In this document: positions 6,209-39,840 of the stretch, one piece after another | How positions within the stretch are numbered: the first letter of the stretch is position 1 | Layout: every line of letters begins with the position of its first letter | Assembly (NCBI RefSeq): GCF_000203975.2 | Contig: NZ_AFCF02000010.1 | Span: forward strand, 1 to 41,555 | From: Leisingera sp. ANG1 | GTDB lineage: Bacteria; Pseudomonadota; Alphaproteobacteria; Rhodobacterales; Rhodobacteraceae | Direction of reading: 5' to 3' | DNA: 41,555 bases | The notes under the pieces: model-generated | The model's input: the letters and a program-made list of their open reading frames with translations, nothing else | Told to the model about the DNA's origin: nothing | Databases searched by the model: none | Made by a program: the position numbers and the translations under genes

Positions 6209-6919
6209 TCAGGGCTGCGCAGCTTGCTCGAAGAAACGGGCGAGGGTTTCCGCAAAGGCTTGCTGATCTGACTGTTCCGCCAGGCTTTCCAGGGCGCGGG
6301 CAAAAACGGCCGGGCCAAGTGTGTCCCGCATTTCATCACTCAGCGCGAGGATGAAGCTGTGGGTCATCTCCGGATGATGCTGTGTGGTGAAGATGTGGCG
6401 GCCAAGGGTGAAGCCCGTGTTCATGCCGCCGCTTTCGCTAAGCGGTGAAGCGCCGCCCGGCAGGGTGCTGACGCATTCGCAATGGGAGCCGTAGAGTTTG
6501 ACCTCATCAGGCAGCGGGATGGCCCAATCCGGGTGGTGCAGCAGATGATTGCGGGTCAGCCCATGGACCCAGCCGTCCGGGTTGCGGTCAAGACTGCCGC
6601 CAAGGGCCTGTGCAATGGCCTGATGCCCGAAGCAGGCGCCGAACAGCGGGAATTTCCGGGCATGGGCTGTGCGGATCAGCGTTAGCAGCTGTGTGACCCA
6701 AGGCGCACCGGAGCGGACAGAGGCTGGGCTTCCAGTGATCATCGCGCCATCAAACGCAAACAGATCCTGCGGGAACTCTGCGTCCTTCACGGCAAAGACG
6801 GATGTGCGCCAGCCCGGCCTGGCCATCCGGATCAGGTCGGTGAACTTCTCACCGTCCTTGGGGTGCCTTTGGGCAAATTCGCTTTCGTCTGTGTTGGTCA
6901 TCAGAATGGCCAAGTGCAT
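6209..6919 (-). CDS. class-I glutamine amidotransferase-like protein
   Basis: A 236-residue GATase1 domain protein, a cysteine amidase fold that normally releases ammonia from glutamine or cleaves a gamma-glutamyl amide. The nucleophile elbow is FGACFGHQAIAQALGG with Cys96, and the His182/Glu184 pair sits in TTQHHPEMT; TGSPASV (about 62-68) forms the oxyanion strand. It resembles stand-alone GMP-synthase-like GATases rather than PuuD. The frame opens further upstream, but MHLAILMTNTD is the natural start. It faces away from the P450-ligase-ferredoxin genes across an 81-bp shared promoter region. A GATase-like protein also accompanies a GS-like ligase in aniline dioxygenase clusters, so a role in gamma-glutamyl amide turnover is my inference. 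Confidence 0.85.
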   Translation of the reverse strand: MHLAILMTNTDESEFAQRHPKDGEKFTDLIRMARPGWRTSVFAVKDAEFPQDLFAFDGAMITGSPASVRSGAPWVTQLLTLIRTAHARKFPLFGACFGHQAIAQALGGSLDRNPDGWVHGLTRNHLLHHPDWAIPLPDEVKLYGSHCECVSTLPGGASPLSESGGMNTGFTLGRHIFTTQHHPEMTHSFILALSDEMRDTLGPAVFARALESLAEQSDQQAFAETLARFFEQAAQP

Positions 6920-7000
6920 GGGAACGCTCGCAAGATTTTCATTTACATAATTACAGGCTCTATTAATATACATAATGCAAGTAAGTTAGGAAAGCCCGCA
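6920..7000. promoter_or_regulatory. AT-rich divergent promoter region of the amidotransferase and P450 genes
   Basis: An 81-bp, unusually AT-rich spacer between divergent start codons. TACATAAT occurs twice in the same orientation (6944-6951 and 6969-6976, 25 bp apart). The second copy is preceded by ATTAATA. The ribosome site TAGGAAAG for the P450 lies at 6987-6994. I propose overlapping promoters and a regulator site, but cannot name the regulator. Confidence 0.5.
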
Positions 7001-8260
7001 ATGACAGTTTGGACCCCCACCGACGACGGCTATGCGGATCTGAGCAGCCATGACACCTTTGCCAATGGCGCGCCGCACAACACCTTTGCCCGGCTGCGGC
7101 AGGAGGATCCGTTGCATTGGACCGAATACGACGGCGGCAGGAATTTCTGGTCGGTGACCCGCTATGAGGACATCACGGTGATGAACAAGAACACTGAGGT
7201 GTTCTCCTCTGCCCGTGGGATCCGGATGGAGGATCAGTCCTACGAGGAATACCTGGCGCGGCGTACCTTTCAGGAGACTGACCCGCCGGAGCATTCCAAG
7301 GTGCGGATGAAACTCCTGAAGGCGTTTTCCAAGACTACGATGGCGCAGTACGAGCAGGACATCCGGGACCTTTGCGCGGATATTCTGGATCAGGCGCTGG
7401 CCAAGGGGGAGTTCGACGCCACCAAAGAGATTGCCCGCCAGCTGCCGATGCGGATGCTGGGCCGGGTGGTGGGCCTGCCGGAGGCGGACTTGCCTTGGCT
7501 GGTGGAAAAGGGGGATGCGCTGATCGCCAATACCGATCCGGATTTCACCTCGCATGTGCTCGATAAGATGCAGACGGATGAGTTCCGGATGATGCCCTTC
7601 AATTCCCCCGCCGGGGCGGAGCTGTATGTCTATGCCAAGGATCTGATGGAGGAGAAAGCGCGCAAGGGCGACACCTTGGGCGTGCTGAACCTGATCCTGG
7701 AACCGGCCAAGGATGGCTCGGTCATCACTGAAACCGAGTTCCGCAACTTTTTTTGCCTCTTGGTGGCAGCGGGCAATGACACCACGCGCTATTCGATTGC
7801 CGCGGGCATTCAGGCGATGTGCCACCAGCCGGAGCTTCTGGCGCAGATGCAAGAGGGTGGAGACGTCTGGGAGACGGCAGCGGATGAGATCATCCGCTGG
7901 GCGACGCCCGCGCTCTACTTCCGCCGCACGGCGACCCGGGATGTGGAGATGCACGGCAAGACCATCCGGGAGGGCGACAAGCTGCTCTATTGGTTTGTCT
8001 CGGCCAACCGCGACGAAAAGCAGTTTGATGATCCATTTCACGTGAATCTGCACCGCAGCCCGAACCGGCATCTGTCGTTCGGCCAGTTCGGCCCGCATGT
8101 CTGCCTGGGCATGTGGTTGGCGCGGCTGGAAGTCACGGTGCTGTTCCAGGAGCTGGCCAAGCGGATCCAGCATATCGAGGCTGCGGGACCTCATAAGTTC
8201 CTGCGGTCAAATTTTGTCGGCGGCATCAAGTCACTGCCGGTGCGGGTTGAGGCCGCTTGA
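7001..8260 (+). CDS. cytochrome P450 monooxygenase
   Basis: A 419-residue soluble class-I-type P450, expected to hydroxylate a small organic substrate with electrons from a ferredoxin. The I-helix oxygen-activation motif AGNDTT is at about 257-262, the K-helix EIIR at 296-299, and the heme ligand Cys368 lies in SFGQFGPHVCLGMWLARLE, a loop one residue longer than the textbook FGxGxHxC but like that of CYP124/CYP125-type enzymes. The start MTVWTPTDDG is set by a ribosome site 7 nt upstream. Downstream come a GS-like ligase and a 2Fe-2S ferredoxin, so the ferredoxin is the likely redox partner; no ferredoxin reductase is nearby. The substrate is unknown; an amine or gamma-glutamyl amide is my inference from the neighbours. 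Confidence 0.95.
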   Translation: MTVWTPTDDGYADLSSHDTFANGAPHNTFARLRQEDPLHWTEYDGGRNFWSVTRYEDITVMNKNTEVFSSARGIRMEDQSYEEYLARRTFQETDPPEHSKVRMKLLKAFSKTTMAQYEQDIRDLCADILDQALAKGEFDATKEIARQLPMRMLGRVVGLPEADLPWLVEKGDALIANTDPDFTSHVLDKMQTDEFRMMPFNSPAGAELYVYAKDLMEEKARKGDTLGVLNLILEPAKDGSVITETEFRNFFCLLVAAGNDTTRYSIAAGIQAMCHQPELLAQMQEGGDVWETAADEIIRWATPALYFRRTATRDVEMHGKTIREGDKLLYWFVSANRDEKQFDDPFHVNLHRSPNRHLSFGQFGPHVCLGMWLARLEVTVLFQELAKRIQHIEAAGPHKFLRSNFVGGIKSLPVRVEAA

Positions 8261-8368
8261 GGATTGCGCTCTTGCAGGAAAGACTCTGCGAAAACCGCTA
8301 AATATGTTAAGTAACAAGGCACGGGAAAAAGATGCCGAAGACTGTCCAACAGGGAAGGACCTGGAGCC

Positions 8369-9658
8369 ATGAAGACCCGCTTGCGCGCGATGTTCTGCGA
8401 CCACCTCAGCATCATGCGGGGGAAATACCTGCCGAATTCCAAGATCGGTGACGGCTCGACGCGGTTCTGCCGATCGGTTTTTGGCACCCATTACGATAAG
8501 GATCTGCTGGACGCGCCGGGATCGATGGTGAAACAGGGTCTTCCGGATATGGAGCTGAAATGGCTGCATGACGATATCCGCGACAGCTGGCATGCCTCGA
8601 CCCAGGTGGTGCTGGGCGATCTCTATGACGATGAGGGGCGGCCGCTGGCGCTGTGCCCGCGCTGGGCGCTGAAGCGTGCGGTTGCGGACTGGCAGAAGCA
8701 CGGGGTGACGCCAAAAGTCGGGATCGAGCTGGAGGCCTTTGCCCTGCAGGCGGACGACAGCGGGCGGCTCATGCCCTATGATGCGCCGGGCGGGGTGGTC
8801 TATGGCACCGGGCCGTTTGCCGACCCCTTGCGGTTCAATGACCGGATCTGGGCGATGGCAGATGACATGGGCTTCTCGCTGGACATGATCACCGCCGAGT
8901 TCGACAGCCCGCAGTTCGAATACACGCTGACCTTTGATGATGCGGTGAAGGCGGTGGATGACATCGTGCTGTTCCGCCTGATGGCGCGGGAAGTGGCGCT
9001 GGAATACGGCATTGTCCTGACGTTCATGCCGAAACCGATTGCCGAGGCCGGCGGCTCTGGCATGCATATCAACTTTTCATTCGTGGACGAGGCGGGCGGC
9101 AATGCGCTGTCGTCAGGGCCGCGGGGCGGGCCGGAGCATATGAACGATCTGGCACGCGGCTGCCTGGCGGGGCTTTTGCATCATCATAAGGGGCTTGCAG
9201 GGCTGATCGCGCCGACTGCCAACAGCTATATGCGGCTGCAGCCGGGGTCTTTGTCCGGGTACTGGCAGAACTGGGGCGGCGACCATCGCAATGTGACAAC
9301 GCGCATCAGCTCTGAGGGCGGTGCCAAGGCGCGGCTGGAGCACCGGATGGCGGATGCCTCGGCCAATCCTTACACCGCGGTGGCGGCAGTCCTGCAAGCG
9401 GCGCGGCTGGGGGTTGAGAACGGCCACCAGTTGCCGCCGATGGAGACCGGCGACGGGTTTGACCGTACCGATGCGCGGGAAGGCACGGCGGTGGACCTGA
9501 AGGGCGCTGTTGGCGATCTGGAAGGGGATCGCGTGCTGGCCGCGGCAGTCGGGCCGGAGCTGGTTGCAAACCACGTCTTCATGAAACGTAAGGAAGTGCG
9601 CAAGACCCGCGACCTGGAAGGTGACGGGATGCGCGATTTCTACGTGCATTTCATCTGA
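8369..9658 (+). CDS. glutamine synthetase-like gamma-glutamyl ligase (locus A)
   Basis: A 429-residue member of the glutamine synthetase superfamily, probably an ATP-dependent ligase joining the gamma-carboxyl of glutamate to an amine other than ammonia. Metal and substrate residues typical of the fold are visible: Glu120 and Glu122 in VGIELEAF, Glu177 in ITAEFDSPQFEY, His233 in GSGMHINFSF (the second His of the usual HxH is Asn235), the nucleotide loop WGGDHRNVTTRIS and the C-terminal HRMADASANPYTAVAA. It lacks the adenylylation-loop context of housekeeping GlnA. It lies 108 nt behind the P450 gene and 20 nt before the ferredoxin gene. Substrate unknown; comparable GS-like genes adjoin CYP151 amine oxygenases and aniline dioxygenase. 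Confidence 0.85.
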   Translation: MKTRLRAMFCDHLSIMRGKYLPNSKIGDGSTRFCRSVFGTHYDKDLLDAPGSMVKQGLPDMELKWLHDDIRDSWHASTQVVLGDLYDDEGRPLALCPRWALKRAVADWQKHGVTPKVGIELEAFALQADDSGRLMPYDAPGGVVYGTGPFADPLRFNDRIWAMADDMGFSLDMITAEFDSPQFEYTLTFDDAVKAVDDIVLFRLMAREVALEYGIVLTFMPKPIAEAGGSGMHINFSFVDEAGGNALSSGPRGGPEHMNDLARGCLAGLLHHHKGLAGLIAPTANSYMRLQPGSLSGYWQNWGGDHRNVTTRISSEGGAKARLEHRMADASANPYTAVAAVLQAARLGVENGHQLPPMETGDGFDRTDAREGTAVDLKGAVGDLEGDRVLAAAVGPELVANHVFMKRKEVRKTRDLEGDGMRDFYVHFI

Positions 9659-30639: not shown

Positions 30640-30674
30640 AAAAGAAAAAGCGCTCCCCGCGGGACGGAGAGCGC
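30640..30674 (-). terminator. terminator of the locus B operon, shared gap of convergent genes
   Basis: On the minus strand GCGCTC (30674-30669) pairs with GAGCGC (30655-30650) around a GC-rich loop, followed by TTTTTCTTTT. It lies 25 nt behind the alcohol dehydrogenase stop and is a convincing intrinsic terminator for that direction. Confidence 0.8.
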
Positions 30675-30698
30675 CGTAGCCTGTGATATGGCTTAAGT

Positions 30699-31844
30699 TC
30701 ACATCGCAGCCTTGAAAAGCTGGGTAAGATTTTCCTCGGTCAGCTCAATCGGGTTGCCGCCGCAAGAGGGGTCAATGATGGCCCCCTTGACCAGCTCGGG
30801 GATGGCCGCTTCGGTTACGCCCAGGTCTGAGAGACCGCGCGGGATGCCCAAGGAGTCGTTCAGCTCCTGCACGAAGCTGCGGAACCCGTCGAAGCCGCCA
30901 TCAATGCCCAAGTAAGCCGCCGCCATTTTGAACCGGTCCGCAATCGCAGCGGCATTGAACTCCAGCACCGCGGGCATGCAGACCGCGTTGGTGGTGCCGT
31001 GGTGGGTGTTGAAATGCGCGCCGATCGGGTGGCTCATCGCGTGGATCGCGCCGAGGCCCTTCTGGAAGGCGGTGGCGCCCATTGCAGCCGCCGACATCAT
31101 CTGCGCGCGGGCCTCGATGTCGGTGCCGTCGGCATAGGCGCGCGGGAGGTAGTCCTTGACCAGGCGCATGCCCTCCAGCGCAATGCCTTGGGACATCGGG
31201 TGATAATGGGGGCTGCTGAACGCCTCGACGCAATGAGCAAATGCATCCAGCCCGGTGCCTGCAGTGATGAACTTGGGCATGCCGACGGTCAGCTCTGGAT
31301 CGCAGATCACCACCGCGGGCAGCACCTTGGGGTGGAAGATGATCTTCTTCTGGTGGGTGACGCTGTCGGTGATCACCGAGGCGCGGCCCACTTCGGAACC
31401 CGTGCCAGCGGTGGTCGGCACTGCGATGATCGGCGCAATGGCATCGGCGTCGGCGCGGGTCCACCAGTCGCCGATATCCTCAAAATCCCAAACCGGACGG
31501 GTCTGCCCTGCCATGAAGGCGACCATCTTACCCAAGTCCAGGCCGGAGCCGCCGCCAAAGGCGATCACCCCGTCATGGCCTCCCGCATTGTAGGCGGCAA
31601 CGCCGGCGTCCAGGTTCTTCTCATTCGGGTTCGGATCGACCTCGGAGAACATGGCGCGGCCCAGGCCTGCGGCCTCCAGAATGTCGAGTGTGCCTTGGGT
31701 GACCGGCAGATCGGCCAGGCCTTTGTCGGTGACCAGCAGCGGGCGCGTGATGCCGGCGGCGGCACAGGCATCCGCCAGTTCCTTGATCCGGCCTGCGCCG
31801 AACTTGATTGCGGTCGGGTAGGACCAGTTTCCAACGAGAGACAT
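30699..31844 (-). CDS. iron-containing alcohol dehydrogenase (locus B)
   Basis: A 381-residue group-III (iron-type) alcohol dehydrogenase oxidising a primary alcohol to an aldehyde with NAD. NAD-binding GGGSGLDLGKMVAF (about 97-110) and PTTAGTGSEVGRASVI are seen; metal ligands are the Asp and His in GTGLDAFAHCVEAF and the two His in GAIHAMSHPIGAHFNTHHG. It is the last gene of the seven-gene minus-strand operon, 64 nt behind the aldehyde dehydrogenase with a 10-bp hairpin in the gap. Together they would take an alcohol to an acid. Its substrate could be a gamma-glutamylated amino alcohol, which is inference from the ligase upstream. Confidence 0.93.
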   Translation of the reverse strand: MSLVGNWSYPTAIKFGAGRIKELADACAAAGITRPLLVTDKGLADLPVTQGTLDILEAAGLGRAMFSEVDPNPNEKNLDAGVAAYNAGGHDGVIAFGGGSGLDLGKMVAFMAGQTRPVWDFEDIGDWWTRADADAIAPIIAVPTTAGTGSEVGRASVITDSVTHQKKIIFHPKVLPAVVICDPELTVGMPKFITAGTGLDAFAHCVEAFSSPHYHPMSQGIALEGMRLVKDYLPRAYADGTDIEARAQMMSAAAMGATAFQKGLGAIHAMSHPIGAHFNTHHGTTNAVCMPAVLEFNAAAIADRFKMAAAYLGIDGGFDGFRSFVQELNDSLGIPRGLSDLGVTEAAIPELVKGAIIDPSCGGNPIELTEENLTQLFKAAM

Positions 31845-31867
31845 GATGTGTTCCTTTGATGCAAGTG

Positions 31868-31897
31868 GCCCGCCCCGGGAGGAGAAACGGGGCGGGC
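31868..31897 (-). terminator. hairpin between aldehyde and alcohol dehydrogenase genes
   Basis: Perfect 10-bp arms (GCCCGCCCCG and CGGGGCGGGC) with a 10-nt loop, 12 nt behind the aldehyde dehydrogenase stop. There is no T run in the minus direction, so I read it as an mRNA-processing or partial-termination hairpin that would reduce or separate expression of the last gene. Confidence 0.5.
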
Positions 31898-31908
31898 GGG
31901 GCCGTCCG

Positions 31909-33297
31909 TCAGCCGGTGACCTTTTTCAGGTGATAGGATTTCGGACGGGTCAGATTGTGATAGCCGATTACCGAGAGCCCGCCGCCGCGGCCGGTGTCCT
32001 TGCAGCCGGTCCAGCACAGGCCCGGATCCAGGTAGTCGGCGCGGTTCATGAAGACAGTGCCGGTCTCGATCCGGTCCCCCACGGCTTGCGCCCGCTCCAC
32101 ATCTCTGGTCCAGAGCGAGGCGGTGAGGCCGAAGTCGCTGTCATTCATCAGCCGGATGGCTTCCTCATCCGAGGAGACCTTCATGATGCCGACAACCGGG
32201 CCAAAGCTTTCCTCCCGCATCACCCGCATGTCGTGAGACACGTTGGTCAGGATTTGCGGCGTCAGATAGGCGCCGCCGTCATCCTCGGAAAAGGTCCCGA
32301 TATGGGCCACCGCGCCCTCCTCAACCGCCTCGGCGATCTGGCCGCGCACCTCGCTGGCAAAACGCACATTGGCCATCGGGCCGATGGTGGTCTCCGCATC
32401 AAGCGGGTTGCCCAGCTTGTAGCCCTTCACGATGGCAATCGCTTTCTCCAGGAAGGCGTCAAACAGGCTTTCGTGCACATAGATCCGCTCGATGCCGCAG
32501 CAGCATTGGCCGGAGTTGAACATGGCGCCGTCAATCAGCGTGTCCACCGCGGCGTCCAGATCGGCGTCTTCCATGACATAGCCCGGGTCCTTGCCGCCCA
32601 GCTCGGTGCCAACGCCAGTGAAGGTGCCGGCTGCCGCGCGCTCCATCGCCTGGCCGCCGCCAACCGATCCGGTAAAGTTCACGAAGTTGAAGGCCTTGGC
32701 GGCAATCAGCTCCGAGGTGGTGCCGTGATCCAAGAAGACATTCTGGAACACGTCTTCGGGGACCCCTGCGGAATGGAAGGCCTGCGCCATGCGCTCGCCA
32801 ACCAGCAGGGTCTGGGTCGCGTGCTTCAGCACCACGGTATTGCCGGCAATCAGCGAAGGCGCCACGGTGTTGATCGCGGTCATGTACGGGTAGTTCCAGG
32901 GCGCCACCACAAAGACCACGCCATGGGGGATGCGCTTGATGTAGCGTTTGAAGGTTGCGTCCTCGCCGACCTCAATATCCGCCAGCGACTCTTCGGCGAT
33001 CTTCGCCATGTGGCTGGCGCGCTCGTTGAAGCCGCCAAACTCGCCGCCGTAACGCACCGGCCGGCCCATCATATGCGCCAGTTCCGGCACGATTTCATCG
33101 TTCATCGCACCGACGGCGGCCACGCCCGCCATCACCAGTTCAATGCGCTCCTGCAAGGGCCGTTCCGCCCAGGCTGTCTGCGCTGCCCGTGCCCGTTCCG
33201 CCGCTGCAAACGCGTCCTCGCGCGACAGCACTTCGCGTTCCGCAAAGACCGATCCGTCAACCGGTGAGATGCATTTCAATACCTGGCCCATTGCCAT
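31909..33297 (-). CDS. NAD(P)-dependent aldehyde dehydrogenase (locus B)
   Basis: A 462-residue aldehyde dehydrogenase. Conserved Asn135 (VAPWNYPYM), Glu232 (TELGGKDPGYV) and the nucleophile Cys266 (FNSGQCCCGIER) are present, with coenzyme contact FTGSVGGGQ and C-terminal EESFGPVVGIMKV. Three cysteines in a row at 265-267 are notable; homologous aldehyde dehydrogenases often have two. It lies 85 nt behind the GS-like ligase and before the alcohol dehydrogenase. GGAGTGA precedes the ATG; MAMG offers two start codons. It probably oxidises the aldehyde produced by the neighbouring alcohol dehydrogenase. Confidence 0.93.
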   Translation of the reverse strand: MAMGQVLKCISPVDGSVFAEREVLSREDAFAAAERARAAQTAWAERPLQERIELVMAGVAAVGAMNDEIVPELAHMMGRPVRYGGEFGGFNERASHMAKIAEESLADIEVGEDATFKRYIKRIPHGVVFVVAPWNYPYMTAINTVAPSLIAGNTVVLKHATQTLLVGERMAQAFHSAGVPEDVFQNVFLDHGTTSELIAAKAFNFVNFTGSVGGGQAMERAAAGTFTGVGTELGGKDPGYVMEDADLDAAVDTLIDGAMFNSGQCCCGIERIYVHESLFDAFLEKAIAIVKGYKLGNPLDAETTIGPMANVRFASEVRGQIAEAVEEGAVAHIGTFSEDDGGAYLTPQILTNVSHDMRVMREESFGPVVGIMKVSSDEEAIRLMNDSDFGLTASLWTRDVERAQAVGDRIETGTVFMNRADYLDPGLCWTGCKDTGRGGGLSVIGYHNLTRPKSYHLKKVTG

Positions 33298-33325
33298 TCA
33301 CTCCATTCAGAAAGGGCAAAGCCCT

Positions 33326-33372
33326 CTTCATCTTTCCGAAAATACTCCGGGGGTCCGGGGGCTGGCCCCCGG
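33326..33372 (-). repeat. GTATTTT-type intergenic motif, copy 4, with hairpin
   Basis: On the minus strand behind the ligase stop: hairpin CCGGGGG/CCCCCGG (33372-33355, 4-nt loop), then CCCCCGGAGTATTTTCGG, AAAGATGAAG. It begins 11 nt behind the stop and is followed by a small AGGGC/GCCCT hairpin (33313-33325) before the next gene. It has the same order of parts as the copy at 6151-6200. Confidence 0.6.
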
Positions 33373-33382
33373 CGCGTCCGGA

Positions 33383-34735
33383 TCATGCCCGCTCGAACCC
33401 GCGCGCAATCTCGTAATCGGTAACCACCCGGTCAAAATCCTCGATCTCCACTTCCGCCGCGCGGACGTAGTGGTCGACCACATCATCGCCAAGGGCCTTG
33501 CGCAGCATTGCTGAGCCTTTAAGAGCCGCCGCCGCATCGCGCAGGGTGCCCGGGATCATGCCGGTATCGCCCTGGTAAACATCGCCCCGAGTGGGGGCTT
33601 GCAGCTCCAGCCCTTCTTCGATGCCGGCAATGCCGGCCGCCAGCATGCCTGCCATCGCCAGATAGGGGTTCATGTCGGAGCCCGGAATGCGGCATTCGAC
33701 GCGGATTGCCTTGGTCCCGTCGCCGCACAGCCGGTAGCCCGCGGTGCGGTTGTCCACAGACCAGATGATCCGGGTTGGCGCAAAGGTGCCCTTCATGAAG
33801 CGCTTGTAGCTGTTGATATAGGGCGCCATGAAGGCGGTGTAGTCGGGCGCGTATTTCAGCAGGCCCGCCATATAGTTCTTCATCAGCGCGGACATGCCTA
33901 GCTCGTCGCTCTCGTCAAAGAACGCAGGGCTGCCGTCCTGCCACAGCGACTGATGCACATGGGAGGAGGAGCCGACCTTGTCGTGACTCCACTTCGGAAG
34001 GAAGGTCACCGCGTGACCCTGTTGCTCGGCGATTTCCTTGATCGCGTGTTTGGCAATGGTGTGGAACTCTGCCGTGTCCATCGCCGCCGTGTATTTGATG
34101 TTCAGCTCTTCCTGGCCGGTCTCGGCCTCTCCCTTGGAGTTCTCGATCGGCAGCCCCGCATCCCACAAGTGGTTGCGGATCGGGCGCATCACATGCTCCT
34201 CGCGGGTTGTCTGCAGGATGTTGTAATCCTCGTTGTAGCCGGAGATCGGCTCGAGGTCGCGGAAACCCGAGCGGCGGATCTCGTCAAAGCTCCTGGCGAA
34301 CAGGAAAAACTCCAGCTCGGTGGCGCACATGGCGTCGTAGCCCATCGCCTTCAGCCGGTTCACCTGCTTCTTCAGGATCGCCCGGGGGGAGTGGGAGACT
34401 TCCTCGTGGGTGTGGTGGTCCAGCACGTCGCACAGCACCATCACGGTGCCCTCCAGCCACGGCACCGGGCGCAGGGTGGCGAGGTCGGGCTTCATCACAT
34501 AATCGCCGTAACCGCGTTCCCAGCTGGTCGAGGCATAGCCGTCCGGCGTCGCCATCGCCAGGTCGGTCGCCAGCAGGTAGTTGCAGCAATGGGTTTCCTC
34601 CCAGGCGCCGTTCACGAAATGCTTGGCATGGAAGCGCTTGCCCATCAGGCGGCCCTGCATGTCCACAAGGCAGACTAGAACAGTGTCTACGGTGCCATCG
34701 GCAACCTGATCCTTAAGAGTGTCGAAGGAGAGCAT
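33383..34735 (-). CDS. glutamine synthetase-like gamma-glutamyl ligase (locus B)
   Basis: A 450-residue member of the glutamine synthetase superfamily, most likely gamma-glutamylating an amine or amino alcohol. N-terminal DMQGRLMGKRFHAKHF, metal-binding Glu140 and Glu142 in TELEFFLF, GEAETGQEELNI, the HxH pair in GSSSHVHQSLW, the nucleotide segment SVDNRTAGYRLCG and ECRIPGSDMNPYLAMAG are all there. Unlike the locus A ligase it keeps the HxH pair, so the two are different subfamilies. I start at MLSFDTLKDQ; a start nine codons earlier is possible. It follows dctP across competing hairpins and precedes the two dehydrogenases. Substrate unknown. Confidence 0.87.
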   Translation of the reverse strand: MLSFDTLKDQVADGTVDTVLVCLVDMQGRLMGKRFHAKHFVNGAWEETHCCNYLLATDLAMATPDGYASTSWERGYGDYVMKPDLATLRPVPWLEGTVMVLCDVLDHHTHEEVSHSPRAILKKQVNRLKAMGYDAMCATELEFFLFARSFDEIRRSGFRDLEPISGYNEDYNILQTTREEHVMRPIRNHLWDAGLPIENSKGEAETGQEELNIKYTAAMDTAEFHTIAKHAIKEIAEQQGHAVTFLPKWSHDKVGSSSHVHQSLWQDGSPAFFDESDELGMSALMKNYMAGLLKYAPDYTAFMAPYINSYKRFMKGTFAPTRIIWSVDNRTAGYRLCGDGTKAIRVECRIPGSDMNPYLAMAGMLAAGIAGIEEGLELQAPTRGDVYQGDTGMIPGTLRDAAAALKGSAMLRKALGDDVVDHYVRAAEVEIEDFDRVVTDYEIARGFERA

Positions 34736-34759
34736 GAGCGGCCCTTTGTCTGTTGCGCG

Positions 34760-34834
34760 CAAAACTTTTCTTCAAAAGTTTTGGCAAATTCCTTGAGTAA
34801 GGAATTTGGCCCGCTTAGACGCAGGCCAAATTCC
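34760..34834 (-). promoter_or_regulatory. competing hairpins between dctP and the ligase gene
   Basis: On the transcribed minus strand, in order: GGAATTTGGCC (34834-34824), GGCCAAATTCC (34811-34801), AAGGAATTTG (34794-34785), then a perfect hairpin with 10-bp arms and a 4-nt loop (CAAAACTTTT and its complement, 34783-34760). The second segment can pair with the first (11 bp) or, extended to GGCCAAATTCCTT, with the third (10 bp), but not both. This is the layout of an attenuator or processing switch; no leader peptide is seen. Confidence 0.6.
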
Positions 34835-34851
34835 ATGTTTCAGCGCTGGCC

Positions 34852-35886
34852 TCAGCCGTAACGGTAGGGACGGCCGGCCTTCTGCATGTCAGCGTTATAC
34901 TTCTTGAAGATCTCCACAACCTTCGCCTTGGTTTCGGACTCGGCCGCGATTTCATCCCAGAATTTCACGGCCGCGTCTTCCACTTGCTGCCACTCGTTGT
35001 CCGGAATGGTGGTCAGCTTCATCTTGTCACCGTTCACGCGCAAGGATGCTTCGCCGCCCCAGTACCACCACTGGCGGTAATAATGCGACTGGTCGCAGCA
35101 GACGCGGAACAGGGTCTGCAGATCTTCCGGAAGCTCGTTCCAGCGGCCCTGGTTGGCAAAGAACGACCCCGCCCAGGCGCCGGAGATGTTGTTGGTCAGG
35201 AAGTAGTCGGTCACATCAGCCCAGCCGACGGTGTAGTCCTCGGTTATGCCGGACCAGGCGATGCCGTCCAGCTCGCCGGTCTGCACCGCAACTTCGATGT
35301 CCTCCCAGGGCAGGGTGACCGGCACCACGCCGAACTGGGCCAGGAAGCGGCCCGCGGTCGGGAAGGTGAAGACGCGCTTGCCCTTCAGGTCCGCCAGCGA
35401 GTTGATCGGGTCCTTGGTGGCAAAGTGGCATGGATCCCAGGCGCCGGCCGAGATGTGCTTGACGCCGACCTTGGAGTATTCCTCGTCCCAGATCTCGTTC
35501 AGGCCGTACTGGTTGAACAGCACCGGAACGTCCAGCGAGTAGCGGGAGGCAAAGGGGAAGTAGCCGCCGAACACGGTGACTTCGGTGGGCGAAGCCATCG
35601 AGTCGTCATCCGACTGCACCGCGTCGATGGTGCCGCGCTGCATGGCGCGGAACAGCTCGCCCGTGGGAACCAGCTGGTCGGCATAGTATAGCTCGATCTG
35701 CATCCGGTCGCCGGCGATCTTGTTGAACATATCGATGGCGGGTTTCACCACATGCTCGGCCAGCGCAGCACCTGCATAGGTCTGCATCCGCCACTTGATG
35801 GTGGACTGGGCCAGCGCCGGGGTGGCCAGCGGTGCCGCCATGGCGCCAACGCCGGCGGACTGAAGAAACTTACGTCTTGTTGTCAT
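34852..35886 (-). CDS. dctP: TRAP transporter substrate-binding protein (DctP family)
   Basis: A 344-residue periplasmic TRAP binding protein. It has a twin-arginine signal (RRKFLQSAGVGAMAAP, cleavage expected after TPALA at about 26), then IKWRMQTYAG, a ligand-domain Arg-type region GKRVFTFPTAGRFLAQFG and LDGIAWSGITEDYTVGWADV. It resembles the mannitol/lactate-like TRAP-T binding group with many aromatic residues (SHYYRQWWYWGGEAS). The start MTTRRKF has AAGGAGTGAG upstream. It lies 51 nt behind dctM. It should deliver the substrate that the operon degrades, so an amino alcohol or amine-derived acid is possible; not provable here. Confidence 0.93.
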   Translation of the reverse strand: MTTRRKFLQSAGVGAMAAPLATPALAQSTIKWRMQTYAGAALAEHVVKPAIDMFNKIAGDRMQIELYYADQLVPTGELFRAMQRGTIDAVQSDDDSMASPTEVTVFGGYFPFASRYSLDVPVLFNQYGLNEIWDEEYSKVGVKHISAGAWDPCHFATKDPINSLADLKGKRVFTFPTAGRFLAQFGVVPVTLPWEDIEVAVQTGELDGIAWSGITEDYTVGWADVTDYFLTNNISGAWAGSFFANQGRWNELPEDLQTLFRVCCDQSHYYRQWWYWGGEASLRVNGDKMKLTTIPDNEWQQVEDAAVKFWDEIAAESETKAKVVEIFKKYNADMQKAGRPYRYG

Positions 35887-35937
35887 AATTCTCACTCCTT
35901 GTTGAAACATCCGGCCCCTTGGCAGGACTCTCCTTGG

Positions 35938-37440
35938 TTATTTTCCGTAGACATATTCCGGCAGCCACAGGGCGATTTGCGGGAAGATCATGATCAGGGC
36001 GAGCGCCAGCACCATCACTGCGGCAAAGGGGATGATCGAGACATAGATGTCCTTCAGTCCGATCTCCGGCGGCGCCATGGCGCGCATCAGGAACAGGTTG
36101 TAGCCAAACGGCGGCGTCATATAGGCGATCTGGGTGGTGATGGTGTAAAGCACCCCGTACCAGATCAGGTCGAAGCCAAGCGCCCCCACCAGCGGCACAT
36201 AGAGCGGCGCCACGATCACCAGCATCGCGGTGTCATCCAGGAAGGTGCCCATCACGATAAAGCTCAGCTGCATCAGGATCAGGATCATCCAGGGGCTGAG
36301 ACCCAGTTTGGTGGTGAACAGGTCCTCGATTGCCTTGACTGCACCTAGGCCGTCAAAAATGGCGCCAAAGGCCAGGGCTGCGAGGATGATCCACATGAAC
36401 ATGCAGGAGATGCCAAGCGTCGAGCGCACTGAGTTTTCGAACACCTCTTTGGTCATCCGCCCCTTCAGCACCGCCGCGATGAAGGCGGTCATGGCGCCGA
36501 TGGCAGAGCTTTCCACCAGAGAGGTCCAGCCGTTCACAAAGGGCACCATCATCGCGGCAAAGATCGCCAGCGGCAGCACGCCGGAGAACAGCAGGCGGTA
36601 CTTCTCCTTCATGAAAACGTCCTTGTAGAACATCGCGTTCTTGCGGGTCAGGAAGGAGAGGAGGCCGAGCGCCAGTGCCACGCCAAGCGCGGACTTGGTT
36701 TCCATAGCACCGGACAGGATCAAGAGCGGAACCAGCACCAGCGCACCCAGCACGATGTAGTTCAGGCGCAGCGGATGGTCGGTGACTTGTTCGTACTCAG
36801 CCAGATCTTCAGGGTGCATTGCCGGGCCGAGGTTCGGCTGCATCCGGGCGCGGACGTAGATGTAGATGATGAACATGGTGGCCATCAGCAAGCCCGGGAT
36901 CACACCAGCCAGCCACAGCTGCCCCACGGGCTGGCGCGCGATCATCGCATAGAGCACCAGCACCACCGAAGGGGGCACCAGAATGCCGAGCGAGGAGCCC
37001 GCCTGAATGGTGCCGGTAACTAGGATCTTGTCATAACCACGGCGCAGAAGCTCCGGCAGCGCAATGGTGGCGCCGATGGCCATGCCGGCAACCGACAGGC
37101 CGTTCATCGCCGAAATCAGAACCATCAGGCCGATGGTGCCAATCGCCAAGCCGCCCTTAACCGGCCCCATCCATACGTGGAACATCCGGTAGAGGTCGTC
37201 GGCGATCTTCGACTCCGACAGCACGTAGCCCATGAAGATGAACATCGGCAGGGTCAGAAGCGGATACCATTTCATCAGCTTCATGGCGGCAGAAAACGGG
37301 ATCTCCACCCCGCCGGTGCCCCACAGAAGCATGCCCGCGACCGCGCCGACAAAGCCGATGGCGCCGAACACCCTCTGGCCGGTCATCAGCATGAGCATCA
37401 TGCCGGCAAACATCACGATGGCGATCCATTCGTAGGACAT
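35938..37440 (-). CDS. dctM: TRAP transporter large permease (DctM family)
   Basis: A 500-residue inner-membrane permease with about 12-14 hydrophobic segments, the ion-coupled channel of the TRAP system. Family stretches are FIFMGYVLSES, GTIGLMVLISAMNGLSVAGM, GTIQAGSSLGILVPPSVVLV and, near the end, FLDDTAMLVIVAPLYVPLV with TTQIAYMTPPFGYNLFLMR. Its start overlaps the dctQ stop by one base (TGATG), showing coupling. Length is somewhat above the usual 425-450, with an additional soluble stretch near residues 195-225 (RARMQPNLGPAMHPEDLAEY). Confidence 0.94.
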   Translation of the reverse strand: MSYEWIAIVMFAGMMLMLMTGQRVFGAIGFVGAVAGMLLWGTGGVEIPFSAAMKLMKWYPLLTLPMFIFMGYVLSESKIADDLYRMFHVWMGPVKGGLAIGTIGLMVLISAMNGLSVAGMAIGATIALPELLRRGYDKILVTGTIQAGSSLGILVPPSVVLVLYAMIARQPVGQLWLAGVIPGLLMATMFIIYIYVRARMQPNLGPAMHPEDLAEYEQVTDHPLRLNYIVLGALVLVPLLILSGAMETKSALGVALALGLLSFLTRKNAMFYKDVFMKEKYRLLFSGVLPLAIFAAMMVPFVNGWTSLVESSAIGAMTAFIAAVLKGRMTKEVFENSVRSTLGISCMFMWIILAALAFGAIFDGLGAVKAIEDLFTTKLGLSPWMILILMQLSFIVMGTFLDDTAMLVIVAPLYVPLVGALGFDLIWYGVLYTITTQIAYMTPPFGYNLFLMRAMAPPEIGLKDIYVSIIPFAAVMVLALALIMIFPQIALWLPEYVYGK

Positions 37441-38036
37441 CAGATTTCAACTCCGCGCAGGCGCCCGATATCCCGGAACAGTTCGGCAAGGCATTGCAGC
37501 AGCATCAGGAAGACGCCAAAGCAAAGGATGGTTTTGACGGGCCACAGGAACGGCCGCCAGGCGGTGGAGCTGCGCTCCAGATAGCCGAGCTGTTCGCCGG
37601 CAGCGGTGGGACCTTCGGTCACAAGCGTCTTCAGCAGATCCCAGAAGAACTGCAGCGGTTCCAGCCCGAAATAGCCAAGGGAATAGGCGGTTGAGCTGAG
37701 AGCGCCGTACATCAGGATCACCAGATAGGCGATCAGGAAAAGCACGGTGAAAGCATCGACCATCGCCTTGGTCTTCGTGGACCATGCCCCGTAGAACAGG
37801 TCCATCCGCACATTTGACCCGAGTTGCATGGAGTAGGGGCCGCCCAGAACGTAATAGGCGACCATCACGAACTGCGCGGTCTCCAGCGTCCAGAGCGACG
37901 GGTTGAAAAACGTCTTGGAGACCGAGGACCACAGAAGCACCCCGATCAGAGCAAAGATCAGATACATGGCAAAGCGGCCAATGGCGCGGTTCATCGCGTC
38001 GATGCCGCGGACGTAAGCCCGGATAATTCTAGGCAT
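37440..38036 (-). CDS. dctQ: TRAP transporter small permease (DctQ family)
   Basis: A 198-residue membrane protein with four hydrophobic segments (about 22-40, 55-68, 92-112 and 168-186), the small subunit that pairs with DctM. RSV-type DctQ features include SLWTLETAQFVMVAYYVLGG and SNVRMDLFYGAWS. It overlaps the amidohydrolase gene upstream by 8 nt and dctM downstream by 1 nt, so the operon is tightly coupled. Confidence 0.9.
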   Translation of the reverse strand: MPRIIRAYVRGIDAMNRAIGRFAMYLIFALIGVLLWSSVSKTFFNPSLWTLETAQFVMVAYYVLGGPYSMQLGSNVRMDLFYGAWSTKTKAMVDAFTVLFLIAYLVILMYGALSSTAYSLGYFGLEPLQFFWDLLKTLVTEGPTAAGEQLGYLERSSTAWRPFLWPVKTILCFGVFLMLLQCLAELFRDIGRLRGVEI

Positions 38037-38814
38037 CTGGCCCTCCCTCTGCCGTCAGCGCGGCCAGGGCTGGGCGCAGCAATGTCAGCATTTCTTCTGC
38101 CATGGCCTCTTCTTCTTCTGGTGACGCCACCAGATCATTGCGGATCTCGATCATTACATTGGCCAGCCCATGCGCCAGCCCGTGGATTTTCAATGAATGG
38201 GTGACGCCGTCAGCCGGGCCATAGGGCTCGTTTCGTTCAACCCGGCGGTGCGGCAGGGCAGGGGCCTCTGCCAGCATCGCGTCTGCCAGGCGGCTGTCGT
38301 CATCGTGCAGGATGCCGATCTCCACCGCGCGCTGCTTGCCGAAATAGACTGGCGTAAAGCTGTGCATCGTGACCAGAACAGTCTGCAGCCCGGATTCTTT
38401 GCGGGCCTTGATCACCTCAGAAACGGCAGCGCAGAAGGGGTCATAAACCGTTTCAACCCGTTCCAGGCGCTGTTCTGCGGTCAGTCCCTTGTTGCCGGGA
38501 ATTTCCACCAGTTCGGATTTCCCCGGCATTGCGCTGGAGGCCTCTGGCGGGCGGTTGCAGTCGTAGACCAGCCGCGACACGGTGCTGGCAACCATCGGGG
38601 CATCCAGCACTTTGGACATATGCAGGGCCACGGCCCGCGCGCCTGGGTCCCATGCGGCATGGCTCAGCCGGTCGGCCTCGCGCAGGCCCAGCCCGTCATA
38701 ACGGGCGGGGATATTGCTGGAGGCATGCTCGCACAGAAGCAGGACCGGGCTGGTGCCGTTACGGTTCACCACCTCCACCGCGTCCTTCTGAGTGTGAGAA
38801 TCACTCTCGTGCAT
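38029..38814 (-). CDS. N-formylglutamate amidohydrolase-family protein
   Basis: A 261-residue zinc-amidase-type protein of the N-formylglutamate amidohydrolase (FGase) family, which cleaves an acyl amide from glutamate or related compounds. Recognisable stretches are VLLLCEHASSNIPARYDGLG, AWDPGARAVALHMSK, SRLVYDCNRPP, VTMHSFTPVYFGKQRAVEIG and the end VMIEIRNDLV. It is the first gene of the locus B operon, starting at MHESDSH with GGGAGG upstream; the longer frame to 38850 is less likely. Given a glutamate-joining ligase in the same operon, release of a gamma-glutamyl product is my inference for its role; hydrolysis of formylglutamate in histidine breakdown is the alternative, but no hut genes are nearby. 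Confidence 0.87.
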   Translation of the reverse strand: MHESDSHTQKDAVEVVNRNGTSPVLLLCEHASSNIPARYDGLGLREADRLSHAAWDPGARAVALHMSKVLDAPMVASTVSRLVYDCNRPPEASSAMPGKSELVEIPGNKGLTAEQRLERVETVYDPFCAAVSEVIKARKESGLQTVLVTMHSFTPVYFGKQRAVEIGILHDDDSRLADAMLAEAPALPHRRVERNEPYGPADGVTHSLKIHGLAHGLANVMIEIRNDLVASPEEEEAMAEEMLTLLRPALAALTAEGGPDA

Positions 38815-38833
38815 GCGCCGCCTCCCTGCGAAT

Positions 38834-38920
38834 TGGAAAAATGTTTCCATGAAGAGATATTTGTGTCAATATCTTTTCATGATCGGTTCCGGACAGAGAT
38901 TCCTGAAACTTTCTTTTCAG
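38834..38920. promoter_or_regulatory. divergent operator region of the RpiR regulator and locus B operon
   Basis: Three inverted repeats with GAAA/TTTC-like halves: TGGAAA-N4-TTTCCA (38834-38849); CATGAAGAGATATT and AATATCTTTTCATG around 6 nt (38848-38881, 13 of 14 pairs); CTGAAA-N6-TTTCAG (38903-38920). CGGTTCCGG also occurs twice (38884-38892, 38923-38931). Phased palindromes between a regulator and its target operon are good operator candidates for the SIS-domain regulator. Confidence 0.65.
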
Positions 38921-38967
38921 GCCGGTTCCGGGGTAGAAAGTGTCTGTTCAAAAACAGGATTGCGCCG

Positions 38968-39840
38968 TTGTCGAAACCTCCTGCCACCGTTCGCGAGTTG
39001 ATCCGCGAAAACTATTCCTCGCTCACTCAATCCGAACGAAAGTTCGCGAACTTGCTGCTGGAAAACTATCCTGCGGCCGGGCTGGCCTCGATCACCATCG
39101 TCGCCGGGAATGCTGAAGTGTCCACGCCGACGGTGGCCAGGATGGTGCAGAAACTGGGGTTCAAAGGGTATCCGCAGTTTCATCAGGCCCTGCTGAAGGA
39201 GCTGGAGGCCAAGGTTTCCGGACCCACCAAGCGGCGCGACAACTGGGCGTCTGAAGCGCCCGAAGGCCACCTGCTGAACAGATTTGCACAGGCGGTGACG
39301 GACAACCTGCAGCAGACTTTTTCCAATATCGACTCGGCCCATTTCGACGCCGCGGTGCATCAGCTAGCCAACACCGAGGGGCGGCTTTATGTGGTGGGCG
39401 GGCGCATCACACGGGCGCTGGCGGATTATGCCTTCACCCACTTCCAGGCGATCCGGCAGCGGGTCACCCATATGACGTCCTCATCCGCCACCTGGCCGCA
39501 TTACGTTCTGGACATGGTTGAGGGCGATACGCTCCTGATGTTCGACGTGCGCCGGTATGAGACCAACCTGCAAAGACTGGCCGAGCTGGCCTCGGAGCGC
39601 GGGGTGAAGATCGTGCTGATCACCGATCAATGGGCCAGCCCGATTGCGTCGGTAGCCGAGCACACCTTCAACTGCTGGGTCGAAATCCCCTCGGCCTGGG
39701 ACTCCAACATCTCCACCATGATGCTGCTGGAGGCGATGATCGCCGCCACCCAGGAGGAGAGCTGGGACAAGACCAAGGACCGCTATGACCGGCTGGATGA
39801 GCTGTTCGATATGACCCGGCTGTTCCGCAAGTTCTCCTGA
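38968..39840 (+). CDS. RpiR/MurR-family transcriptional regulator (HTH plus SIS domain)
   Basis: A 290-residue regulator. Residues 1-80 form the HTH_6 domain (SLTQSERKFANLLLENYP, then STPTVARMVQKLGFKGYPQF); about 120-265 form a SIS domain that binds a phosphosugar-like effector (GRLYVVGGRITRALADYAFT, GDTLLMFDVRRYETN, VKIVLITDQWASPIA). No ATG suits the N-terminus; the in-frame TTG at 38968, with CAGGA 8 nt upstream, gives the family-like start MSKPPATVRELIRENYSSL. The longer frame to 38197 runs antisense through the amidohydrolase gene and is not real. It is divergent from the locus B operon and probably controls it. Confidence 0.9.
   Translation: MSKPPATVRELIRENYSSLTQSERKFANLLLENYPAAGLASITIVAGNAEVSTPTVARMVQKLGFKGYPQFHQALLKELEAKVSGPTKRRDNWASEAPEGHLLNRFAQAVTDNLQQTFSNIDSAHFDAAVHQLANTEGRLYVVGGRITRALADYAFTHFQAIRQRVTHMTSSSATWPHYVLDMVEGDTLLMFDVRRYETNLQRLAELASERGVKIVLITDQWASPIASVAEHTFNCWVEIPSAWDSNISTMMLLEAMIAATQEESWDKTKDRYDRLDELFDMTRLFRKFS

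Follow-up and report, generated by a model that had tools for sequence, protein, structure and literature searches.

Leisingera sp. ANG1 carries, on a contig of 41,555 bases (NZ_AFCF02000010.1, analysed whole and hereafter called the window) within its 4.59-Mb genome, seven minus-strand genes encoding in succession a hydrolase of the N-formylglutamate amidohydrolase (FGase) family, the three subunits of a tripartite ATP-independent periplasmic (TRAP) transporter (DctQ, DctM and DctP), a ligase resembling glutamine synthetase (GS), an aldehyde dehydrogenase (ALDH) and an iron-type alcohol dehydrogenase (Fe-ADH). A gene for an RpiR-family regulator diverges from this operon. Here, we report that the locus very probably serves ethanolamine catabolism by the γ-glutamylation pathway already published, and we compare it with its relatives, above all the Eto operon of Roseobacter (Phaeobacter) sp. 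MED193.

Organization of the locus

The open reading frames (ORFs) and Pfam matches confirm all seven genes, and they bear out a preliminary description, made from the sequence, of a seven-gene operon with overlaps of 1–8 nt at its start and a divergent RpiR gene. The FGase and DctQ genes overlap by 8 nt and DctQ and DctM by 1 nt; the gaps that follow, as listed, are 27 nt (DctM–DctP), 89 nt (DctP–ligase), 85 nt (ligase–ALDH) and 64 nt (ALDH–Fe-ADH). The features are as follows, with percentages giving protein identity to the MED193 counterparts.

38968..39840, plus strand: RpiR-family regulator (HTH_6 and SIS, by Pfam); approximate start at TTG 38968, assigned by reading the sequence; 88.6%
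38029..38814 (listed ORF to 38850), minus strand: FGase-family amidohydrolase, orthologue of the MED193 γ-glutamylglycine amidohydrolase (GGAH); PF05013, 140.8 bits; 65.8%
37440..38036, minus strand: DctQ, small TRAP permease (EtoV); PF04290; 80.3%
35938..37440, minus strand: DctM, large TRAP permease (EtoW); PF06808; 88.2%
34852..35910, minus strand: DctP, TRAP binding protein (EtoX); 4uab/4xf5, 650.7 bits; 93.8%
33383..34762 (probable start ATG 34735), minus strand: GS-like ligase, predicted ethanolamine γ-glutamylase (ETAGA); 5dm3, 784.9 bits; 84.0%
31909..33297, minus strand: aldehyde dehydrogenase, predicted GAADDH (γ-glutamyl aldehyde to γ-glutamylglycine); PF00171, 387.5 bits; 84.2%
30699..31844, minus strand: iron-type alcohol dehydrogenase, predicted GETADH (γ-glutamylethanolamide to aldehyde); PF00465 and PF25137; 92.7%
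30649..30675, minus strand: terminator-like hairpin at the operon end, directly after the Fe-ADH gene; 12 pairs, 8 of them G-C, and a T-rich tail

For the FGase gene, ATG 38814 is the probable start, because GGGAGG lies just 5′ of this codon and the operator and promoter proposed below overlap the longer form; the start at 38850 was set aside. By itself the hairpin is weak evidence of an operon end, because the scanned stretch holds two such sites against 0.9 expected from shuffles. Neither Rfam families nor tRNA genes were found in the window. The FGase of Leisingera sp. ANG-M7 is 96% identical to the window protein.

The gene arrangement is not a product of chance, because 55 of 80 FGase loci, picked by similarity to the window FGase and many of them closely related, match all eight genes (the core enzymes, the TRAP genes and the RpiR gene), a few being cut by contig ends, for example L013. 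Another 16 have the four enzymes without the TRAP genes, and the remaining 9 lack at least one core enzyme: seven of these are at the edge of a contig, and the other two (L043 and L058) have no linked ALDH match. In five rhizobial loci (L079 and L081–L084), a gene of amino-acid-permease type stands between the FGase and ligase genes; the permease of L079 exceeds the cut-off of no NCBIfam model.

Substrate and enzymes of the proposed pathway

The binding protein narrows the choice of substrate. Its best solved relative, deposited as both 4uab and 4xf5 with the same protein sequence, is followed by a runner-up at 67.7 bits. The passages concerned describe 4UAB as Csal_0678 of Chromohalobacter salexigens, crystallized with ethanolamine, with Glu220 holding the ligand (PMC12410723). 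Residue 220, counted from the start codon, is the glutamate of an ITED motif in three Chromohalobacter proteins; it corresponds to Glu224 of the window DctP and is invariant in all 56 full sequences, the window included (drawn from 57 loci with a match over >80% of the query; L019 and L032 were excluded as partial). The window protein is thus an orthologue of Csal_0678 and EtoX that keeps the ethanolamine-holding glutamate. For MED193 EtoX, a dissociation constant of 7.9 µM for ethanolamine is reported (Westermann 2023, PMC10132767). Because 4UAB was crystallized with ethanolamine and the 93.8%-identical MED193 orthologue binds it, the substrate can, by analogy, be narrowed to ethanolamine.

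The sequence shared by 4uab and 4xf5 also bears on another small amino alcohol as the main substrate, such as L-alaninol, which would pass through γ-glutamyl-L-alanine to alanine: the 4xf5 ligand is, we take it, (S)-2-amino-1-propanol, the same compound. The passages concerned on MED193 mention no alaninol test. Given the binding of ethanolamine by the MED193 orthologue and the response of its operon to phosphoethanolamine, we regard such a substrate as very improbable, and ethanolamine is the substrate assumed below.

A second type of DctP, roughly 62–66% identical, occurs in L027, L028, L029, L052, L055, L061, L065, L071, L073, L075 and L076. It has fixed differences such as Y124H, W158Q, H162N and W202Y and retains Glu224; its ligand may differ.

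On the ethanolamine reading, the TRAP system EtoVWX would import ethanolamine, the GS-like ligase would couple it to the γ-carboxyl of glutamate with use of ATP, the Fe-dependent dehydrogenase would oxidize the resulting γ-glutamylethanolamide to the aldehyde and ALDH would convert the aldehyde to γ-glutamylglycine. The FGase-family hydrolase, with its predicted zinc-carboxypeptidase-like fold, would then release glycine and glutamate, so that the glutamate carrier would be recycled, and RpiR would probably repress the operon from a palindrome over its promoter. Our analysis establishes orthology, gene order, conservation of the ligand residue and a HutG encoded elsewhere, and others have demonstrated phosphoethanolamine induction and ethanolamine binding for the orthologous operon; the zinc, the operator and the individual enzyme reactions in Leisingera sp. 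ANG1 are inferred.

The ligase is orthologous to the ligase of MED193 and Chromohalobacter and is not GlnA. Its best solved relatives, 5dm3 and 11zs (580 bits), were both deposited as glutamine synthetase, and all others score at most 176.2 bits; it falls below the cut-off of the GlnA model (251.9 against 429.15 bits). ALDH reaches no NCBIfam cut-off among the 25 models listed, and the best NCBIfam model for Fe-ADH, 4-hydroxybutyrate dehydrogenase, scores 362.4 bits against a cut-off of 500. The canonical route through EutBC ethanolamine ammonia-lyase was rejected for this genome, in which EutB (PF06751) has zero matches under a search that detected the E. coli control. Elsewhere in the window (6863–9658), a cytochrome P450 gene lies beside a second GS-like ligase, a pair that we take to recall the isopropylamine (Ipu) type of pathway.

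The FGase-family protein could in principle be a second N-formylglutamate deformylase acting outside the pathway. It belongs to PF05013 and has invariant His, Asn-Arg and Glu positions in common with HutG. The alignment of the FGase loci comprised 77 rows (the window, 2odf and 75 loci; L017, L022, L025, L042 and L073, present as short pieces, were left out). Among solved structures, 2odf matches it at 261.1 bits. The genome's own HutG, however, reaches 366.7 bits with the HutG model (TIGR02017, cut-off 278.75) and lies on L091 between hutH (644 bits, cut-off 539.15) and hutU (769.3, cut-off 375), whereas the window protein scores 21.8 bits, is 22% identical to that HutG and is not located with hut genes. 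A role as the deformylase of the histidine pathway was therefore rejected, and, with the linkage of FGase to the ligase also considered, any deformylase role outside the pathway is extremely unlikely.

This linkage was counted in an FGase-independent sample of 120 genomes from the family, with a ligase threshold of E ≤1e-140. The ligase occurs in 72 of the genomes in 73 copies, 51 of which have a co-directional FGase gene no more than 8 kb upstream, and 56 of 60 FGase matches (≥165 bits) fall in ligase-bearing genomes. The count took the 60 FGase matches of ≥165.9 bits; in genomes that have a ligase as well, the weaker FGase matches are distant from it or on a different contig.

Several observations weigh against the proposed pathway, or against the place of FGase in it. 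No linked FGase accompanies the other 22 ligase copies; three of these have an FGase on another contig, the contig of G119 stops next to DctP, and at least four (G069, G114, G118 and G119) can be contig breaks. Among nine FGase-unlinked loci examined, four (L095, L096, L097 and L099) hold only the ligase and Fe-ADH of the eight genes. At three of the 22 unlinked places, Pfam identified no replacement amidohydrolase among ten neighbouring proteins, three of which match no Pfam family. The predicted FGase structure (pLDDT 91.4) aligns best with 2odf and 2q7s (N-formylglutamate amidohydrolase) and next with two poly-γ-glutamate hydrolases, tied with carboxypeptidases; a γ-glutamyl hydrolase is absent from the 50 Foldseek matches listed, nor does the fold match indicate a substrate. 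For MED193 itself, the pathway figure is headed ‘Predicted’, the passages concerned contain no GGAH assay, and EtoX also rises under phosphorus starvation (PMC10132767).

The 22 of 73 ligase copies without a linked FGase suggest that the pathway may sometimes do without this enzyme. It could instead work at an earlier step or serve as a safety valve, hydrolysing γ-glutamylethanolamide for instance, with other peptidases handling γ-glutamylglycine. A carboxypeptidase-like fold would, however, suit a substrate such as γ-glutamylglycine, in which the amide has a free carboxylate beside it, and we consider this alternative role unlikely. Release of glycine and glutamate from γ-glutamylglycine remains the preferred assignment.

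Candidate operator and phosphatase-linked variants

The region between the divergent RpiR and FGase genes contains two candidate sites, 30 bp apart.

38834..38849, no strand assigned: candidate RpiR operator site 1, TGGAAAAATGTTTCCA; sole match in the 4.59-Mb genome
38864..38879, no strand assigned: candidate operator site 2, with a TTGACA box (minus strand)

Site 1 conforms to the palindrome TGRAAA-N4-TTTYCA, which occurs in 35 of 68 RpiR–FGase intergenic regions (all loci with both matches); across the 1,281,099 bases of the loci concerned it matches nowhere else. Out of 119 permuted palindromes, the best (TRGAAA, an overlapping variant) is found in 18 of the regions and the next in 8, and others are seen as many as 25 times in the loci and never in the intergenic regions. 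The reversed pattern has three matches in the genome. The palindrome is missing from every one of the 12 loci that match neither TRAP nor RpiR genes. A second, half-similar site with a TTGAC box lies 30–31 bp away in 27 of the 68 regions, and ATTGAC[AG] is present in 57; a simple promoter scan returned no promoter at the operon start. Leisingera intergenic regions also hold a longer inverted repeat, which was set aside for the shorter, more widely shared motif. Counting on the other side, the motif was derived from the same regions in which it was counted, many of them closely related, and 33 of the 68, including three from Chromohalobacter, lack its strict form. We regard the palindrome as a good, though unproven, candidate for the RpiR operator.

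Twenty of the 80 FGase loci have no TRAP match, although L042 is undecidable, its contig ending just after FGase. Eleven of them (L036, L042, L043, L046, L049, L056, L063, L067, L068, L069 and L070) have a gene resembling inositol monophosphatase upstream of FGase on the same strand, called by Pfam for L049 and L056 and by similarity to L049 for the others. In L056, an RpiR gene stands between the phosphatase and FGase genes. Five of the 11 also have a Na/Pi-cotransporter–PhoU gene, and L070 has an additional ABC transporter whose best models, 2-aminoethylphosphonate importers, score below their cut-offs. These gene contents suggest an intracellular phosphoethanolamine route, in which the intact head group might be imported and dephosphorylated in the cell, the phosphate exported and the product γ-glutamylated. 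In its simplest form, the compound taken up would be a phosphorylated amino alcohol, processed by the same core once dephosphorylated. We put this route forward tentatively, as possible and somewhat short of probable. Three observations argue against it: the best NCBIfam model for the L049 phosphatase is histidinol-phosphatase (235.5 bits, cut-off 275.15); a permease in the L068 cluster exceeds the cut-off for choline transporters (389.4 against 363), so that the substrate there may be choline-like; and other ABC transporters lie near L049 and L036.

Leisingera daeponensis DP1N14-2 has its core genes on two contigs, L013 with the TRAP genes and L068 with the choline-like ABC transporter. L068 also carries the phosphatase and a gene resembling dimethylglycine dehydrogenase, and both contigs end within Fe-ADH.

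The window's own genome has a phosphatase and Na/Pi-cotransporter–PhoU pair on another contig (L104:7684-10288), unlinked to the operon and 78–79% identical to the pair of L049. The best phosphatase match in MED193 has only 37% identity, so the variant would not explain the growth of MED193 without PhoX. Westermann et al. do not settle, in the passages concerned, whether head groups enter the cell intact (PMC10132767). Within the titles and abstract openings of an open-licence literature subset, neither the phosphatase-linked variant nor the RpiR regulator and operator is described beyond Westermann 2023, a paper whose text contains neither ‘inositol’ nor ‘operator’.

Membrane-lipid ethanolamine is a widespread source of nitrogen and carbon in the sea, so the trait can be read off a genome sequence once this operon is recognized. 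Our additions are the predicted RpiR operator, a probable FGase start downstream of the listed one and the phosphatase-linked variants; these variants offer a gene-level candidate for head-group entry before breakdown. The operon is of low interest in itself, and its relatives provide a moderate lead.

Comparison with known γ-glutamylation pathways

In the Puu putrescine pathway of E. coli, the γ-glutamyl group protects the amine during oxidation, and the window operon would use the same protection. Its ligase differs, lying far below the cut-off for γ-glutamylputrescine synthetase (NF045547, 193.6 against 650 bits).

The preliminary description had proposed uptake, γ-glutamylation of an amino alcohol, oxidation to aldehyde and acid, and hydrolysis by the FGase-family protein. 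This chain agrees with the published readings for MED193 and Chromohalobacter and was right in substance, the amino alcohol being narrowed here to ethanolamine. Its suggestion of novelty for release by an FGase-family enzyme fails, because the step is already in print in three papers: the enzyme is named for MED193 (Westermann 2023), and the step was proposed earlier in Krysenko 2019 (PMC6529630) and, for the Chromohalobacter pathway, in Table 2 of a 2022 review (PMC9397018).

Streptomyces coelicolor, with its GlnA4 γ-glutamylethanolamide route, shares the proposed chemistry, including the FGase-family hydrolase; unlike the window, the cluster in the legend concerned comprises a putative ethanolamine transporter, a short-chain dehydrogenase and a glutamine amidotransferase, with no TRAP system (PMC6529630). 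The Csal_0678 ethanolamine pathway of C. salexigens has the families PF00120, PF00465, PF00171 and PF05013 in common with the window (PMC9397018). Three Chromohalobacter loci (L047, L051 and L059) match all eight window genes, and the window proteins are 60–86% identical to those of C. israelensis; unlike in the window, the strict form of the operator is missing from all three intergenic regions of these Chromohalobacter loci.

The closest counterpart is the Eto operon of MED193 (L026), published as an ethanolamine pathway. Growth on phosphoethanolamine raises the levels of five of its proteins, and GGAH is the name given to the FGase-family member; for C. salexigens and Agrobacterium, the same source points to Vetting et al. 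2015 (PMC10132767). In MED193 as in the window, RpiR diverges from FGase–DctQ–DctM–DctP–GS–ALDH–Fe-ADH, with all eight genes, their order and their strands identical. The only difference seen is sequence divergence, largest in the FGase gene, and the window thus holds a copy of an already known type of operon, without new biochemistry.

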